Positions 2,049-50,778 of a stretch of 50,846 nt of DNA are shown here, piece by piece (the stretch's first letter is position 1; each line of letters opens with the position of its first letter). The stretch spans positions 1 to 50,846 of the forward strand of contig JAPPLB010000145.1 of NCBI GenBank assembly GCA_028819575.1, read 5' to 3'. Made by a program: the position numbers and the translations under genes. This stretch comes from Bryobacterales bacterium. Its GTDB lineage: Bacteria; Acidobacteriota; Terriglobia; Bryobacterales; UBA6623. A model generated the notes under the pieces. It saw only the letters and a list, made by a program, of their open reading frames with translations. It was not told the origin of the DNA and made no database searches.

Positions 2049-2087
2049 CCTGCATGTATTACTACCTGACGGCCGGAGCACGCGATG
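2049..2087 (-). repeat. Diverged copy of the CCTGC-ended element
   Basis: An ungapped alignment of these 39 bases with 49112-49150 gives about 30 identities, including the CCTGCAT end, a shared GACGG block and GCAC/CGAT blocks. It therefore looks like an old copy of the same right terminus, in minus orientation. The rest of the 320-base gap between the ferredoxin start and the transporter stop (1869-2189) holds nothing else I can name; a loosely similar inverted end (GGTGATGTAAGCGCAG) at about 2112-2127 could be the other terminus of a shrunken copy. Confidence 0.5.
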
Positions 2088-2189
2088 TTCAGGCGTTGGG
2101 TGGTTTGTGGGTGATGTAAGCGCAGTCTCAGGGTAACGCGAGCGATTGTTTCGGCCCCCTGGCGAAGGGCTTCTTTCGTGACAGGCGCC

Positions 2190-11254: not shown

Positions 11255-11406
11255 TTCGAGCATGTTTTTCCTCCGCCCGTGCGCGGATCTTGCAAGCGGG
11301 AAACATCCTGGCCCTTGTCAACGCCGCCGGCCAAGGGGGATGATTCAGGTCAGCGGCGCGGCAGGCTGTGCGCTCGACCCCGCAGAAGCCCACCCCCAAC
11401 GCCTCG

Positions 11407-12636
11407 ATGTCCTACCGATCCATCCGTGACCTCGACCTCCGGGGCAAGCGCGTCTTACTCCGAGTCGACTTCAATGTCCCCCTTGAAGCCGACGGCAGGA
11501 CCATCACCAGCGACGCGCGGATCCGCGCCGCTCTGCCGACGGTGCGAGCGTCACTTGATGCGGGCGCAATGCTCGTTCTTGCCTCTCATCTTGGGCGCCC
11601 CCAAGGCAAGCCCACCCCGAAGATGAGTCTCATGCCCATCGCGGAGCGGCTTGGCGAGCTGCTCGGAAAAAACGTTGCGATGGCGTCCGATTGCATCGGC
11701 GGTGAAGTTGTGCAGCAGGCTCAATCACTCACGCCCGGTGACGTTCTCCTGCTTGAAAACCTGCGTTTCCACGCCGGCGAAGAGAAGAACGATCCTGAAT
11801 TCGCCCGCGCGCTCGCCGGCCTTTGCGGCATCTACGTCAACGATGCTTTCGGAGCCGCGCATCGCTCCCATGCGTCCACCGCAGGCATCGTCGAACACGT
11901 CTCGGAAGCGGCAGCCGGCCTGCTGATGGAAAGAGAAATAAAGTATCTTTCGATGGCGCTGCGTGAACCGGCCCGCCCCTATATCTCGATTATTGGCGGG
12001 GCGAAGGTCTCCGGGAAAATTGACGTCATTCGCAACCTGCTCGAAATCTCCGACCGCGTGCTGATCGGCGGAGCAATGACCTACACTTTCTTGAAGTCCC
12101 GGGGCTTGCCCGTCGGCGACTCTCTTGTCGAAGATGAGAAGCTTGACTTGGCTGCCGGGCTGCTGGCCGCCGCCGGCGATCGTCTACTGCTTCCTCTAGA
12201 CCATGTTGTCGCGCCCGACCTTGCCGCCGACGCTCCAACCCGAACCGTCGACGGCGCCGGTCAACCCATCCCCGATAGATGGAGGGCGCTCGATATCGGC
12301 CCGAAAACGATCGCCGCTTATCGAGACGAGATCGCAAAAGGGAGGATGATCGTCTGGAATGGCCCGATGGGCGCTTTCGAGATCGAACCGTTCGCGCGAG
12401 GAACGATTGAAGTTGCCAAGGCTGTCGCCGCCTCGAAGGCAACGTCGATTATCGGCGGGGGCGATTCAGAAAAAGCCATACAGATCGCGGGGGTCGCCGA
12501 CAGCATCACCCACATCTCCAGCGGAGGGGGCGCATCGCTCGAGTTCCTCGCCGGAAAGACACTGCCCGGCGTAGAAGCGCTCGAAACATCGGCGCGAAGC
12601 AACCGGCGTTCATTCAGCCATGGAACCGTTGCCTGA
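11407..12636 (+). CDS. pgk: Phosphoglycerate kinase
   Basis: 409 residues, typical length. Transfers phosphate from 1,3-bisphosphoglycerate to ADP. Signatures: RVLLRVDFNVPLE at the N-terminus (PGK signature), SHLGRPQGK, LLLENLRFHAGEEKND, FGAAHRSHAS, then the ADP-binding half with GGAKVSGKI, and near the end GGGDSEKA and HISSGGGASLEFL. ATG 11407 gives the family start (SYRSIRDLDLRGK); 13 more in-frame codons upstream have no homology character. It follows gapA by 150 bases in the same direction, the usual glycolytic arrangement. Confidence 0.98.
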   Translation: MSYRSIRDLDLRGKRVLLRVDFNVPLEADGRTITSDARIRAALPTVRASLDAGAMLVLASHLGRPQGKPTPKMSLMPIAERLGELLGKNVAMASDCIGGEVVQQAQSLTPGDVLLLENLRFHAGEEKNDPEFARALAGLCGIYVNDAFGAAHRSHASTAGIVEHVSEAAAGLLMEREIKYLSMALREPARPYISIIGGAKVSGKIDVIRNLLEISDRVLIGGAMTYTFLKSRGLPVGDSLVEDEKLDLAAGLLAAAGDRLLLPLDHVVAPDLAADAPTRTVDGAGQPIPDRWRALDIGPKTIAAYRDEIAKGRMIVWNGPMGAFEIEPFARGTIEVAKAVAASKATSIIGGGDSEKAIQIAGVADSITHISSGGGASLEFLAGKTLPGVEALETSARSNRRSFSHGTVA

Positions 12637-17292: not shown

Positions 17293-17393
17293 GGGCTCCG
17301 GGGAATCCGCGGCACTCGGCAGAGGCTGCTACCGTTGCTTCCTTCCGGACCTGGCGGAGTTCACAGCATCCCGCTGCACAGAGCCCGGAGCCC
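17293..17393 (-). ncRNA. ffs: Signal recognition particle 4.5S RNA (small bacterial type)
   Basis: Read on the minus strand, 17393-17293 forms a long hairpin: the 5' end GGGCTCCGGG pairs with CCCCGGAGCCC at the 3' end. The apical part carries the signature GGTCCGGAAGGAAGCA, the SRP54 (Ffh)-binding symmetric loop and the GGAA tetraloop. About 100 nucleotides is the usual length of the short bacterial SRP RNA without an Alu domain. It is essential for co-translational targeting of membrane proteins. Position directly before dnaX is a recurrent bacterial arrangement. The exact ends are judged from pairing only. Confidence 0.95.
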
Positions 17394-37770: not shown

Positions 37771-37790
37771 CCTGCTTTTCTCACCATGCG
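37771..37790. repeat. Solo end of the CCTGC/TTCTCACCA element
   Basis: CCTGCTTTTCTCACCATGCG matches the element terminus with one difference in its first 16 bases. It lies in the 160-base gap between the Gfo/Idh stop and the CocE start. I do not find a matching inverted end within this gap, so it is a relic or a solo terminus. Function beyond the repeat family is unknown. Confidence 0.5.
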
Positions 37791-37911
37791 GTGGGGCGGA
37801 AAACAGAAGAGCGCCGGCCGCCAACAGGCAGGGTCGCTACGGCCCCAGGACCCAAGCGATTCCTGCGATCCGTACACCTGTCATCTGTCCGTACTTTCAG
37901 GGCCGGAGCCG

Positions 37912-42692: not shown

Positions 42693-43532
42693 CTACTCCT
42701 TCTCGGCGATGATCCCGATCATCGGCGGCGTCGACAGGAATACGCCCGGGGCCCGCTCGCGATCGCGCCATTCGGATTCGAACGCGCTTTGTTCCGCCTC
42801 CGTCAACAAGCCGGCTTCAACCAGCCTTGGCACATAGCCAAAGAAAAACTGTGTCGGCCAGTCCCAGAACGTCGTGCCCGGTCTGACAAAACGCACCAGC
42901 GGGACCAGGTCGATCAGGCGGCAGCCGGATTCCACGATCTGCGCCGGCAAGCGGTCGCCGACGTTCAGGCTGCCCCCGGTGCGCCGCCAGCTTTCGTAGA
43001 CCGCAGCAAGCACGCGATCGAACGCCGGACTCCTCGGCTGAAGCGTCGTCGCGCTGTAGTTCAGGTAATCCCAGACCACGAGGCGGCCGCCTGGCCGCAA
43101 CCCGAGAACGACCCGGTCGATGACCGGGGCCGGATCCGGTAGAAAGCAGAACAGCCACCGCACGAAGGCACCGTCCAGCGAGGCGGGCTCGAGCCGCAAA
43201 TCCTCGACCCGCTCCACCCGCGCCGTGAGCTGCACGATCCCGAGACGCTCCGCTTCGCGGGCCAGCGCGGAGATGAAGCGCGCCGACTCGTCGACGGCGA
43301 GCACCTGGCCCCCGGCCCCGACACGGTCGGCCAGCTCGAGGGCGGCGAACCCCGGGCCGCAGCCGAGATCAATCAGCCGCTCTCCAGCCCCGAACCCGGC
43401 ACGGTCCCACAGCTCGCGCGCGGCCCCGGCCCACAAGCGGTGCTGCGTTTCGAGACGCCGCCCCTCCTCCGGATCGGTACCGAGCAGATACGGTTCTTCC
43501 GATGCGAGGCGCGAGTCCATTGCGCTACTCAT
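42693..43532 (-). CDS. Class I SAM-dependent methyltransferase
   Basis: About 279 residues from ATG 43532; the frame runs 37 codons further but into the element end. Motif I GERLIDLGCGPGFAALELAD, then acidic AVDESARFIS, motif with RWLFCFLPDPAPVIDRV and the strand LRPGGRLVVWDYLNYSATTL are all present. The C-terminal ~110 residues resemble cap regions of ubiquinone/menaquinone-type or small-molecule methyltransferases, but the substrate is not identifiable. The GNAT gene follows on the same strand. Confidence 0.9.
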   Translation of the reverse strand: MSSAMDSRLASEEPYLLGTDPEEGRRLETQHRLWAGAARELWDRAGFGAGERLIDLGCGPGFAALELADRVGAGGQVLAVDESARFISALAREAERLGIVQLTARVERVEDLRLEPASLDGAFVRWLFCFLPDPAPVIDRVVLGLRPGGRLVVWDYLNYSATTLQPRSPAFDRVLAAVYESWRRTGGSLNVGDRLPAQIVESGCRLIDLVPLVRFVRPGTTFWDWPTQFFFGYVPRLVEAGLLTEAEQSAFESEWRDRERAPGVFLSTPPMIGIIAEKE

Positions 43533-43651
43533 GCGGTTTCCGTGCCCGAAACAGGCGGTTCCAGAAGATGCAAGCTGTACCGGCCCATCTTCACTACCCA
43601 ACTCCCTCGGTCGGGAAACAAAATCCATGGGTAAGTATTGCACTTCATTAG

Positions 43652-43908
43652 CCTGCCCTTCTCACCACACGGCGAGTTGAAGTGCGTGAGAGGGCCGTCA
43701 GGACGAGGCGCGCGCCGGGCGGAGGAAAAAGGCGCGCGCAGGGGTAGTGGCCTGATCGTCTCCTTCACCCCTCGGTTCACCGGCCGTCAGACATTTCTTC
43801 TGGAGCGAACCTGGCCCCCGCCCATGGTTTTCACGAATCACGAGACACGAAACACGAATCACGGCCTTTTCTTGTGTGCTTCGGCCGTCGGGTGGTGAGA
43901 AATGCAGG
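43652..43908 (+). mobile_element. Complete non-coding element with inverted ends (MITE-like)
   Basis: 257 bases. The left end CCTGCCCTTCTCACCAC is nearly the reverse complement of the right end GTGGTGAGAAATGCAGG (two to three differences), giving 17-20-base terminal inverted repeats. Bases 43660-43735 align with the reverse complement of 49275-49200 through AAGTGCGTGAGAGGGCCGTC and GCGCGCGCAGG. The middle differs and contains CACGAATCACG-type short repeats. No ORF for a transposase, so it would need mobilisation in trans. Clear target duplications are not seen (flanks ATTAG and CTGGA). The CC..GG ends loosely recall IS1380-type termini, which I cannot confirm. Confidence 0.75.
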
Positions 43909-43967
43909 CTGGATTCTCCGTTGCCGGACGGGGTAGTATGCTTCCAATGAAATGAGGAGCATGAATC

Positions 43968-45473
43968 ATGATTCGATTGAACCTTGCCGCAGTCTTGATC
44001 CCGTTGCTCGCCCTGTTCGCCTGCGGGAACGAGAAAACGTCGACCTCGTCCTACGACAGGGGATCGGAAGTCGATGCGCTGGTGTCCCGCGCCAAGTCCT
44101 TCGAGCTGCCCACGGAGTGGGTAGGCCCTCCAGGCGACCCTCTCCATCATCACACCGCGGGCTTCGCGAAGATCCTGTGCTCGGCCGTGTTCGTCACAGG
44201 ACTCGACGCCGATTTTGCCGCCGAGAACATCGGCTACTTCACGAGCCACTACGACGAGCGCTCGAAAGTAACCAAGCGCGAGATCGACATGGAGAAGAAG
44301 TTGGTGCGCCTGACGCTCCCGGACGGCGTGGTGCGTACGGCCAAATACCTCGGCGACCAAGGCTGCGTCACGTTTCCTCTCGGGGAGGATGGACTCCATT
44401 TCGAGGCCGTCGACGTGACCAGCTCGCTTCCCGATCCCGACAGGCAGCCGTGGCCGATGGGCGACTCGCTGCCCGACGAACCGTTTCCGGCCGAGCTCGA
44501 TGAAGCGAAGGTCGGGGCCGCCGTCCAAGCCGCCTTCGAGCCGGCCGAGGGCATGACCGCCGCCTTCGTCGTCACCTGGAAAGGACGTCTTGTCGCTGAA
44601 CGCTACCGCGACGGGCTGGACCTTCACACGCCGCTTGAAAGCTGGTCGATGGGCAAGAGCTTGACCGCGACGCTGATGGGGGTTCTCATTCAGCAAGGGG
44701 TCTACGACCTCTGGCAGCCGGCGCCGGTCCCGGAATGGCAACAGGAAGGGGACCCGCGGGCGGAGATCCGAATTGCCGACATCCTGCGGATGTCGAGCGG
44801 GATCCGCTGCGTGAACCGCGGCGATCCGGAATATGATCCTGCCATGGGATACCCCGACCATCTCTATCTCTACACGAGCGGGGGGGACTCGTTCAAATGG
44901 GCCGCGACGAGGCCGCAGCAGTGGCCGCCGAATACGATCGGGCGCTACCGGAACTGTGATCCCGTCCTGACGAACTACCTCGTGCGGCTCGCCGTCGAAG
45001 GACGCGGGGACGAGTACCACTCCTTTCCCCAGCGGGAACTCTTCGACAAGATCGGCATTCGTGACATGGTGATGGAGACCGACCCGTACGGCAACTTCCT
45101 GATCCAGGGCTATGAATTCGGAACGGGCCGGGACTGGGCGCGTCTCGGCAACCTGTACCTGCAAGACGGTGTTTGGCGAGGCGAGCGGATCCTTCCGGAA
45201 GGCTTCGTGGAGTTCGTCAGCACGACGGCGCCCGCGTGGGAGGCCGACGGCCGCCCCATCTATGGCGGCTTTTTCTGGATCAACAGCAGGGACGCCTACC
45301 CGATTCCGAAAGACGCGTACTACATGGCGGGAGCCGGAAACCAGAAAACGATCATCATTCCCTCCCACGACCTGGTCGTAGTGCGCCTCGGACACTACAA
45401 AGGCTCGAGCCCGGGCAACGAGGGCCTGAAAAACGCCTTGACGCTGCTCATGGAAGCCGTTCCCAAAAGCTGA
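43968..45473 (+). CDS. Secreted serine hydrolase, beta-lactamase/class C fold, lipoprotein
   Basis: 501 residues. A lipoprotein signal (AAVLIPLLALFACGNEK; lipobox Cys19) anchors it to a membrane. After a ~170-residue extra N-terminal region of unknown fold comes the class C beta-lactamase/esterase domain with the S-x-x-K motif S227-M-G-K230 (ESWSMGKSLTATLMG) and Y-x-N at Y327-R-N329. Members are esterases, D-aminopeptidases or 6-aminohexanoate-dimer hydrolases (the SWSMGKS form is common in the last). Complete, no frameshift. ATG 43968 follows GAGGAGC, a good ribosome-binding site. Confidence 0.92.
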   Translation: MIRLNLAAVLIPLLALFACGNEKTSTSSYDRGSEVDALVSRAKSFELPTEWVGPPGDPLHHHTAGFAKILCSAVFVTGLDADFAAENIGYFTSHYDERSKVTKREIDMEKKLVRLTLPDGVVRTAKYLGDQGCVTFPLGEDGLHFEAVDVTSSLPDPDRQPWPMGDSLPDEPFPAELDEAKVGAAVQAAFEPAEGMTAAFVVTWKGRLVAERYRDGLDLHTPLESWSMGKSLTATLMGVLIQQGVYDLWQPAPVPEWQQEGDPRAEIRIADILRMSSGIRCVNRGDPEYDPAMGYPDHLYLYTSGGDSFKWAATRPQQWPPNTIGRYRNCDPVLTNYLVRLAVEGRGDEYHSFPQRELFDKIGIRDMVMETDPYGNFLIQGYEFGTGRDWARLGNLYLQDGVWRGERILPEGFVEFVSTTAPAWEADGRPIYGGFFWINSRDAYPIPKDAYYMAGAGNQKTIIIPSHDLVVVRLGHYKGSSPGNEGLKNALTLLMEAVPKS

Positions 45474-49016: not shown

Positions 49017-49111
49017 TCGCGAGATGGAGCCATGGATCTGTCGCAGATTCGGGACTTACCGCAACCTCCAAGGGCCCACTCTTTTCACCTCCATCAAACG
49101 AAGGGGCTTAG

Positions 49112-49275
49112 CCTGCATTTCTCACCACCCGACGGTCGAAGCACACGATACGACCGCCAGGACTTCGTTGCGCTTGCTTGCCGTGCTCAACGTACTGTTC
49201 AAGTACGCCTGCGCGCGCCAAGCGGCTCACGCCTCGTCATGACGGCCCTCTCACGCACTTCGCCTCGCCGCGTGG
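49112..49275 (-). mobile_element. MITE-like element copy interrupted by the group II intron
   Basis: Same family as 43652-43908, in opposite orientation. Its end CCTGCATTTCTCACCAC at 49112 is intact; its interior contains CTTGCCGTGCTCAACG and a small palindrome, CGTACT-GTTCA-AGTACG (49193-49209). The other terminus should continue past CCAC (read on the minus strand) as TGAGAA..GCAGG, but the sequence instead jumps at 49275/49276 to the 3' end of the group II intron. The remaining ~15 bases should lie beyond the intron, outside the window. The stretch 49017-49111 after the receptor is otherwise empty. Confidence 0.75.
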
Positions 49276-49394
49276 GTAGAGTCGAGGGGAGGCGCGCCGG
49301 CCGTAGGTCGAGGGAGTAGCTGTTGCTGGCGGCTTTCGCCCCTTGCCAGTGCCTCGGTCTCTCCCCTAGCCACGTTTCCTCTCCCCCGCTCGTC

Positions 49395-49428
49395 AAACCG
49401 GACGTGCGGTTTTCCCGCATCCGGCTTT
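49395..49428 (-). ncRNA. Group II intron domain V
   Basis: 34 nucleotides. AAAGCCGGA pairs with TCCGGTTT, then a two-to-three base bulge (ACG side), then GCGG/CCGC capped by a GAAAA loop, the classical catalytic hairpin that holds the AGC triad and the bulge metal site. It is the ribozyme's active centre, just downstream of the maturase gene. Confidence 0.9.
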
Positions 49429-49437
49429 CAGTCGGGA

Positions 49438-50778
49438 TCATGCCTTCGCCCACGGAAAGCTCTTCGTCCTCGTCTCCAGGCAAGTCAGACCGTATTGCTG
49501 CCACAGCCTCTCGTCCGGGAAGCGCATCTTCCCCCCGGTCCTGACCCGGTGTCTCCGACAGAGCCACTGACGCAGCCGCCGGACCGCGTGGCGGTCGATC
49601 GCTCGATAGGCCGGGCTCACCTGCCCCAAGCGAAAGTAGTTCGCCCATCCCGTCATCATCCGGTTCAGGCTCTCTACCACCTCGCCCGGCGGCAGCGTCC
49701 CGTTGCTCGACGCCGTCCACTCGCTGATCTTGCGGCACAGGCTTTGAACGCTCGCCCGGCTGGGTCGGGTCCCCATGTAGCTCCCCTTCCCCGTCCGGCG
49801 ATAGTTGCGCCCGATCCGGTACCCCAGAAACTCCATCTCCTCCTGCGGGCACCGCATGCAGCGCGTCTTGCGCTCGTTCACCTCCAGCTTCAACTCCTCC
49901 ATGATCCGCTTGACCGCTTCCAGCATCTCTGCCCCCGCAGCCTTGCCCACCACACAGAAGTCATCCGCATAGTTGACGATCTCCGCGCTGAAGCGCCGGG
50001 CATATCCCAGCACCTTCCAGCCCACCACGAATCGCCTCAGATAGAGATTGCTCAGCAACGGTGAGATCGGGGCTCCTTGCGGCGTCCCCTTGCGCTGCCT
50101 CCGCCCGCGGTTCCGGCGGCGTCGGCCGCCCTTCCCGTCGTCCTCCTCCTCCGGCATCTCCAGCCATGCCTTGATCCACTTCAGCATTCGCCCGTCACTC
50201 ACCCGTCGGGCCACGCTGCGGATCAACTCCGCATGCGGAATCTCTCCGAAGTAGTTGGACAGATCTCCATCGACCACCTCGTTGTGTCCCCTCTTCAGGA
50301 GCTCCTGTACTCGGATGATCGCGTCGTTGGCGCTCCGCCCCGGCCGATACCCGTACTGCTCCGGCTCCAGGTCCGCTTCAAAGATCGGCTCCAACACCAA
50401 CAACGCCGATCTCTGCGCCACCCGGTCCCGCAGGCACGGTATGCCTAACGGCCGATACTTCCCAGACTGTTTCTTCGGAATCAGGACCTGCCGCACCGCT
50501 CGCGGGCGGTACGTCCCTTCCCTCAACTCCCGCGCCAGTTCCCCCAACCAGCCCTCCACCCCCTGCGCCTCGATGTCCTTGATACTTTCCCCGTCCACCC
50601 CGGCCGAGCCGCCATTACGTCGTACCCGCTCCCAGGCTTCCCTCAGAAAGTCCTTCCGCCACACCTTGTCGGCCAGCGCGTGAAACCGCCGCTCGGGGTC
50701 CTCCTTCGCTTTCGCATGCAGCACCGTCTGGAGTTTCCGAACCCTCTCTGACCCTGTTAGACCTTTGTCAGTGGCCAC
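49438..50778 (-). CDS. ltrA: Group II intron reverse transcriptase/maturase
   Basis: 446 residues. Reverse-transcriptase blocks: LIPKKQSGKYRPLGIPCLRD, EQYGYRPGRSANDAI, VVDGDLSNYFGEIPH, GTPQGAPISPLLSNLYL (QG-x-P-x-SP at 234-240), NYADDFCVV with the catalytic Y270-A-D-D, then the thumb/maturase domain X (NGTLPPGEVVESLNRMMTGW, ANYFRLGQVSPAYRAID). There is no C-terminal HNH endonuclease. A Lys/Arg/Glu-rich insertion (EEEDDGKGGRRRRNRGRRQR) sits at about 210-230. The start is GTG 50778, seven bases after AGGAGG. It splices its own intron and copies it into DNA. Confidence 0.96.
   Translation of the reverse strand: MATDKGLTGSERVRKLQTVLHAKAKEDPERRFHALADKVWRKDFLREAWERVRRNGGSAGVDGESIKDIEAQGVEGWLGELARELREGTYRPRAVRQVLIPKKQSGKYRPLGIPCLRDRVAQRSALLVLEPIFEADLEPEQYGYRPGRSANDAIIRVQELLKRGHNEVVDGDLSNYFGEIPHAELIRSVARRVSDGRMLKWIKAWLEMPEEEDDGKGGRRRRNRGRRQRKGTPQGAPISPLLSNLYLRRFVVGWKVLGYARRFSAEIVNYADDFCVVGKAAGAEMLEAVKRIMEELKLEVNERKTRCMRCPQEEMEFLGYRIGRNYRRTGKGSYMGTRPSRASVQSLCRKISEWTASSNGTLPPGEVVESLNRMMTGWANYFRLGQVSPAYRAIDRHAVRRLRQWLCRRHRVRTGGKMRFPDERLWQQYGLTCLETRTKSFPWAKA

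Follow-up and report, generated by a model that had tools for sequence, protein, structure and literature searches.

The window analysed here, 50,846 nucleotides long, is an entire contig (C35) of a Bryobacterales genome (G000; 5,368,506 bases in 200 contigs) and carries several copies of a short repeat with inverted ends. The locus raises two questions: what kind of element is this repeat, and which enzyme could have spread it?

Copies in the window and among related genomes

The window was searched with a profile built without its own copies; the reversed window gave 0 matches. The three clear copies named in the original prediction were all recovered, and the complete one has, as proposed, two mutually inverted ends (read directly as CCTGCCCTTCTCACCAC ... 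GTGGTGAGAAATGCAGG) and no ORF. The truncated end at the contig start agrees with the consensus at 47 of 48 bases. Of two weaker copies proposed earlier, that at 2049 is real, since its alignment score to the consensus was equalled in 0 of 300 shuffles. The other, at 37771, is doubtful and a stub at most: past the terminus, only about 25 bases show a weak match (score 20 versus a best of 17 in 300 shuffles), and the profile search of the window did not detect it. The family accounts for 1.1% of the window, and its terminus alone, with up to three mismatches, occurs there 6 times against 1.6 expected, which is modestly above chance. The window also contains a gene for the bacterial small SRP RNA (17293-17390, minus strand; RF00169, 70 bits).

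Table 1. Copies of the repeat in the window and features that adjoin them
Feature	Position	Strand	Evidence or remark
MITE right-hand end, truncated by contig start	1..49	+	profile E=1e-11
Decayed MITE end	2049..2114	-	profile E=6.5e-6; alignment to consensus
Possible MITE terminus stub, weak	37771..37816	+	consensus alignment
Methyltransferase gene, one neighbour of the 257-bp MITE	42693-43643	-	
TTAG, left target-site flank of complete copy	43648..43651	.	YTAR; differs from right flank
MITE complete copy, 257 bp, replaced-centre (long) type	43652..43908	+	profile E=7e-80
CTGG, right target-site flank of complete copy	43909..43912	.	decayed YTAR; duplication not intact
Beta-lactamase-fold gene, other neighbour of the 257-bp MITE	43968-45473	+	
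TTAG, left flank of the 49112 MITE copy	49108-49111		
177-bp-type MITE, 164 bp present	49112..49275	-	profile E=2e-54
Group II intron inside MITE, 3' part, running off contig end	49276..50846	-	
Group II intron reverse transcriptase/maturase ORF	49438..50778	-	TIGR04416 340 bits; PF00078, PF08388

The copy at 49112 ends where it does because a group II intron (RF00029 match at 49276-49429 in the window, 40.7 bits) interrupts it 13 bp before its far end. On the minus strand the break falls between TTCTCA and CCAC, exactly at the intron 3' end; the profile match, given as 49112-49288, overruns this true break.

The repeat had been expected to be very abundant, and whole-genome scans agree. The terminus CCTGCNNTTCTCACCAC has 612 exact occurrences in G000, and the wider form CCYGCNTNTCTCACCA has 823 there, 391 in G002 and 7 in G001; both patterns read backwards gave 0. 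With the 257-bp copy as DNA query, 54 matches were found in G000; roughly half span its whole length, with 75-84% identity. Beyond the pattern scans, counts rest on sampled contigs. Across 483 kb in five long contigs, profile matches at 83 places add up to 13.1 kb, or 2.7%; as these contigs were partly picked for carrying copies, the share in the whole genome can be put only roughly at 1-3%.

Among 61 genomes searched the terminus is confined to G000, G002, G001 and G042. Of 257 genomes from the order, 5 carry the conserved core of the element; they belong to three genera in two families. We rejected the notion that G001 lacks the family: it holds a few copies, and the pattern CCTGC overlooks ends that read CCCGC. 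One copy in G042 carries a CTAG/CTAG duplication. A phylum-wide sample of 396 genomes gave no convincing core outside the window's own genome, and a core match in G325 was dismissed as a chance match. The family has expanded in two of the three members of a single Bryobacterales genus, and scattered relatives occur in two further genera. Copies also lie on two contigs of 3 kb (L198, VYEH01000451.1; L201, JAAXGO010000110.1) from MAGs labelled Proteobacteria and Rhodothermales; these contigs are more probably misbinned than a sign of transfer.

Another scattered repeat, whose ends resemble CCTGAAACATCC ... GGATGTTTC, lies at 11290-11410 (minus strand) of the window and at many loci of G000 and G002, for example L158:18975-19070 and L128:14969-15032. 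Searching about 1.1 Mb from G000 gave 18 matches and 0.39 Mb from G002 another 20, with 0-1 in the controls; this repeat may be a further MITE family.

Ends, interiors and insertion sites

Sequence fetched from G000 and G002 (770 kb at first, later more than 1.4 Mb) yielded complete copies of 34-311 bp, with length peaks at 176/177, 201 and about 280 bp; the 160-260 bp proposed earlier was too narrow. The inverted ends are 17 bp long (CCYGCATTTCTCACCAC) and were paired in 119 copies, and the copies contain no transposase gene. The 177-bp consensus folds almost throughout its length into a single imperfect hairpin, with -110 kcal/mol and z = -9.2 as RNA and z = -7.9 as DNA. In the 201- and 280-bp types the centre is inserted or replaced, and roughly 50 bp and 40 bp are kept at opposite ends. 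At the lower extreme, 34-bp solo palindromes consist of two ends back to back (for example L068:8886, L080:13716, L089:7023, L098:10644 and L100:9076), with flanks that are mostly decayed. At one insertion site G000 has a 281-bp-type copy (L075:18151-18431) and G002 one that is shorter by about 100 bp (L194:2266-2443), which suggests that interiors are swapped between copies (or that two insertions occurred at one site).

The 119 complete copies are flanked on both sides by YTAR (CTAG, TTAG, TTAA, CTAA). Target duplications, which had been suggested as a check, are evident at a length of 4 bp: the two flanks are identical in 23 of the 119 copies against a shuffled mean of 10.2, and 0 of 2000 shuffles reached 23. 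In the same 119 copies there is no excess of identity at lengths 2 or 5-8 and none that is significant at 3. The excess comes from G000; G002 alone shows none (2/40), a result that fits older, decayed insertions there. Empty orthologous sites give the same picture. The G000 copy at C9:14711 reads TTAA[177]TTAA where its congener has one TTAC, the copy at L089:8673 (contig C20) corresponds to one TTAG, and in the reverse case a G002 copy (L164:9106) faces one TCAG in G000. For the complete copy of the window no clean empty site was found, as other repeat sequence fills about 520 bp at that position in the congener. Judged by these sequence features, the copies are transposon insertions.

The insertions also avoid genes: 20 of 107 sites lie within predicted genes where 86 were expected (P about 1e-42), in a test for which copies were excised in silico and genes were called crudely. 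The same 107 sites show no preference among convergent, tandem and divergent neighbours. A short element (below about 600 bp) with inverted ends, a fixed duplication, an intergenic position and many copies is a MITE by the usual features, and what we describe is a new MITE family of a known kind.

A candidate IS1380-family partner and its rivals

A search for an autonomous element with the same ends had been suggested, with the IS1380 family to be considered first, and a transposase of that family was indeed found between such ends, with the same kind of duplication. A PF13701 HMM search of G000 retrieved two full genes, on contigs C109 and C121, each inside a complete 1.72-kb element; the two elements are 97% identical. 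The transposase belongs to the IS1380 family (NF033539, E=4e-115, 385 bits versus a cut-off of 180), and the elements are flanked by CTAA/CTAA and CTAG/CTAG duplications. Their ends read CCYGCATTTCTCACCAG and CCCGGATATCTCACCAG, the left one having the form CC[CT]GCATTTCTCACCAG in the two elements. The MITE sequence CCTGCATTTCTCACCA equals the left end of the C121 element over 16 bases, giving 16 of 17 on one side; the right end of the IS departs from the MITE end at several positions. The interiors of MITE and IS align no better than shuffled sequences and are thus unrelated, so that the comparison supports shared ends and not an origin of the MITE by deletion from the present IS copies. The C121 element itself sits in a MITE, since its flanks minus one CTAG make a continuous 201-type copy, a form known uninterrupted elsewhere.

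Other IS1380 lineages of the genus have similar ends beside YTAG. In sister genera the IS1380 targets are CTAG or TTAG and the ends are again similar, with CTAG on both sides in G009 and G013; the ends in G008 differ more. G008, a single contig from another genus of the same family, has dozens of IS1380 matches, many of full length (for example L273 and L285), with CCCG ends next to YTAG and no MITE termini.

From these matches of ends and targets we consider it very probable that the repeat is a MITE family mobilised through its ends by an IS1380-family transposase whose gene lies at another place in the genome. This transposase would recognise the shared 16-17-bp ends, take up the MITE and join it to a YTAR target. 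As the long and short forms retain the outer stem only, the ends alone are probably sufficient for movement. The copies later decayed and probably swapped interiors, and a group II intron, an IS110 element and an IS1380 element have each inserted into one of them. Against this reading stand the unrelated interiors and the divergent right end of the IS, the lack of an excess of identical flanks in G002, and the 43652 copy itself, with its unequal flanks (TTAG/CTGG) and no clean empty site.

The same MITE might instead be moved by a different IS family with a YTAR or TA target, such as the IS5 group or IS630 (TA). Some IS5-family members are likewise known to use YTAR, and DDE_3/IS630-type and DDE_Tnp_1 genes occur in the genus. 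However, in the fetched loci MITE ends surround a transposase gene in the two IS1380 elements only, and the flanks fit a 4-bp model better than a 2-bp model, which makes such a mover improbable. An IS630/Tc1-type MITE with a TA duplication was rejected in particular, as the flanks correlate over 4 bp, beyond TA, and the fetched DDE_3 loci lack MITE ends. Two further candidate partners were discarded. A 1.6-kb unit of G002 (L161:18316-19937), flanked by two MITE ends, proved to be an IS110-family element that has entered the centre of a MITE and whose reading frame is broken into two parts; the group II intron could not serve the whole family, as the genome has a single group II intron match.

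The hairpin calls for separate consideration. Both sides had changed in 23 of 51 pairs, against 9.3 after shuffling and 7-10 in slid structures, and 95% of cells were paired; this set comprises 29 copies from five genomes and two families, whose relatedness inflates the counts. The fold extends over the whole length and recurs in copies from other genera. These observations would suit a functional structured RNA or folded DNA that is kept by selection on the hairpin, with mobility secondary. Yet the centre is lost or replaced in many copies, no gene orientation is favoured, and arm-to-arm correction within a palindrome yields compensatory changes without selection. A known RNA family was rejected, as Rfam covariance models gave no match to the MITE even at relaxed thresholds. 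We therefore hold a primarily structural element to be very improbable; the covariation itself may stem either from selection acting on the hairpin or from arm-to-arm correction. A narrower version, in which the full-length hairpin would be under structural selection, either as DNA for IS1380-mediated movement or as a processed RNA, and the conserved core would also act as a landing pad for RNA-guided IS110 elements and group II introns, so that the repeat would be more than an inert MITE, is rather unlikely. Finally, REP/BIME-like or integron attC-like repeats, which a RAYT or an integrase would spread with no target duplication, are likewise palindromic, intergenic, very abundant and sometimes clustered, but they are so ill-suited to the 4-bp duplication, the empty sites and the full inverted ends that the repeat has in common with a DDE insertion sequence that this explanation is scarcely credible.

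Relation to known elements

The MITE and IS1380 (NCBIfam NF033539, Pfam PF13701) have in common their ends (16 of 17 on one side), the YTAR target and the 4-bp duplication; they differ in that the IS is 1.7 kb long with a transposase, whereas the MITE spans 34-311 bp, lacks a transposase and has an unrelated interior. For IS1247, which belongs to the IS1380 family and comes from Paracoccus, the listed duplication is 5 bp (PMC3281130). Among described small repeats, the enterobacterial ERIC, RU-1 (127 bp) and RU-2 (168 bp) resemble the present family in size, intergenic place, hairpin and hundreds of copies (PMC2759123), and ERIC reaches up to 711 copies in Photorhabdus luminescens (PMC10969869). 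Going by published descriptions, their sequence, host and target differ from those of the present family. The Correia element of Neisseria is likewise an abundant intergenic hairpin MITE, with ends, target and presumed partner unlike those of the present MITE. It is present in >120 copies (PMC10969869).

QMITE2 of Coxiella burnetii varies in length (about 190 bp when full), leaves truncated palindrome-like remnants, is present in 78 copies and hosts insertions of the IS110 family (IS1111) (PMC10969869). The IS110 element in a G002 MITE is a parallel to IS1111 in QMITE2, although the hosts differ and the 78 copies of QMITE2 compare with several hundred here. MITEPye1 of Paracoccus yeei was linked to its IS through agreement in ends and duplications and through hairpin folding (PMC11578231); its partner is an IS1182 and its chromosomal copies number 1-3, whereas the present MITE has IS1380 as its candidate partner and hundreds of copies. 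In the open literature searched, no IS1380-driven MITE was evident, and a 2024 review of prokaryotic MITEs does not mention IS1380 (PMC10969869).

The undescribed family thus joins the few MITEs with hundreds of copies per genome and is tied, as a candidate, to IS1380. Such repeats explain why contigs of these uncultured genomes end inside copies, as at the start of the window. Termini number about 800 and 400 in two of the three related genomes and fewer than 10 in the third, which offers a natural setting for the question of what triggers a MITE burst.
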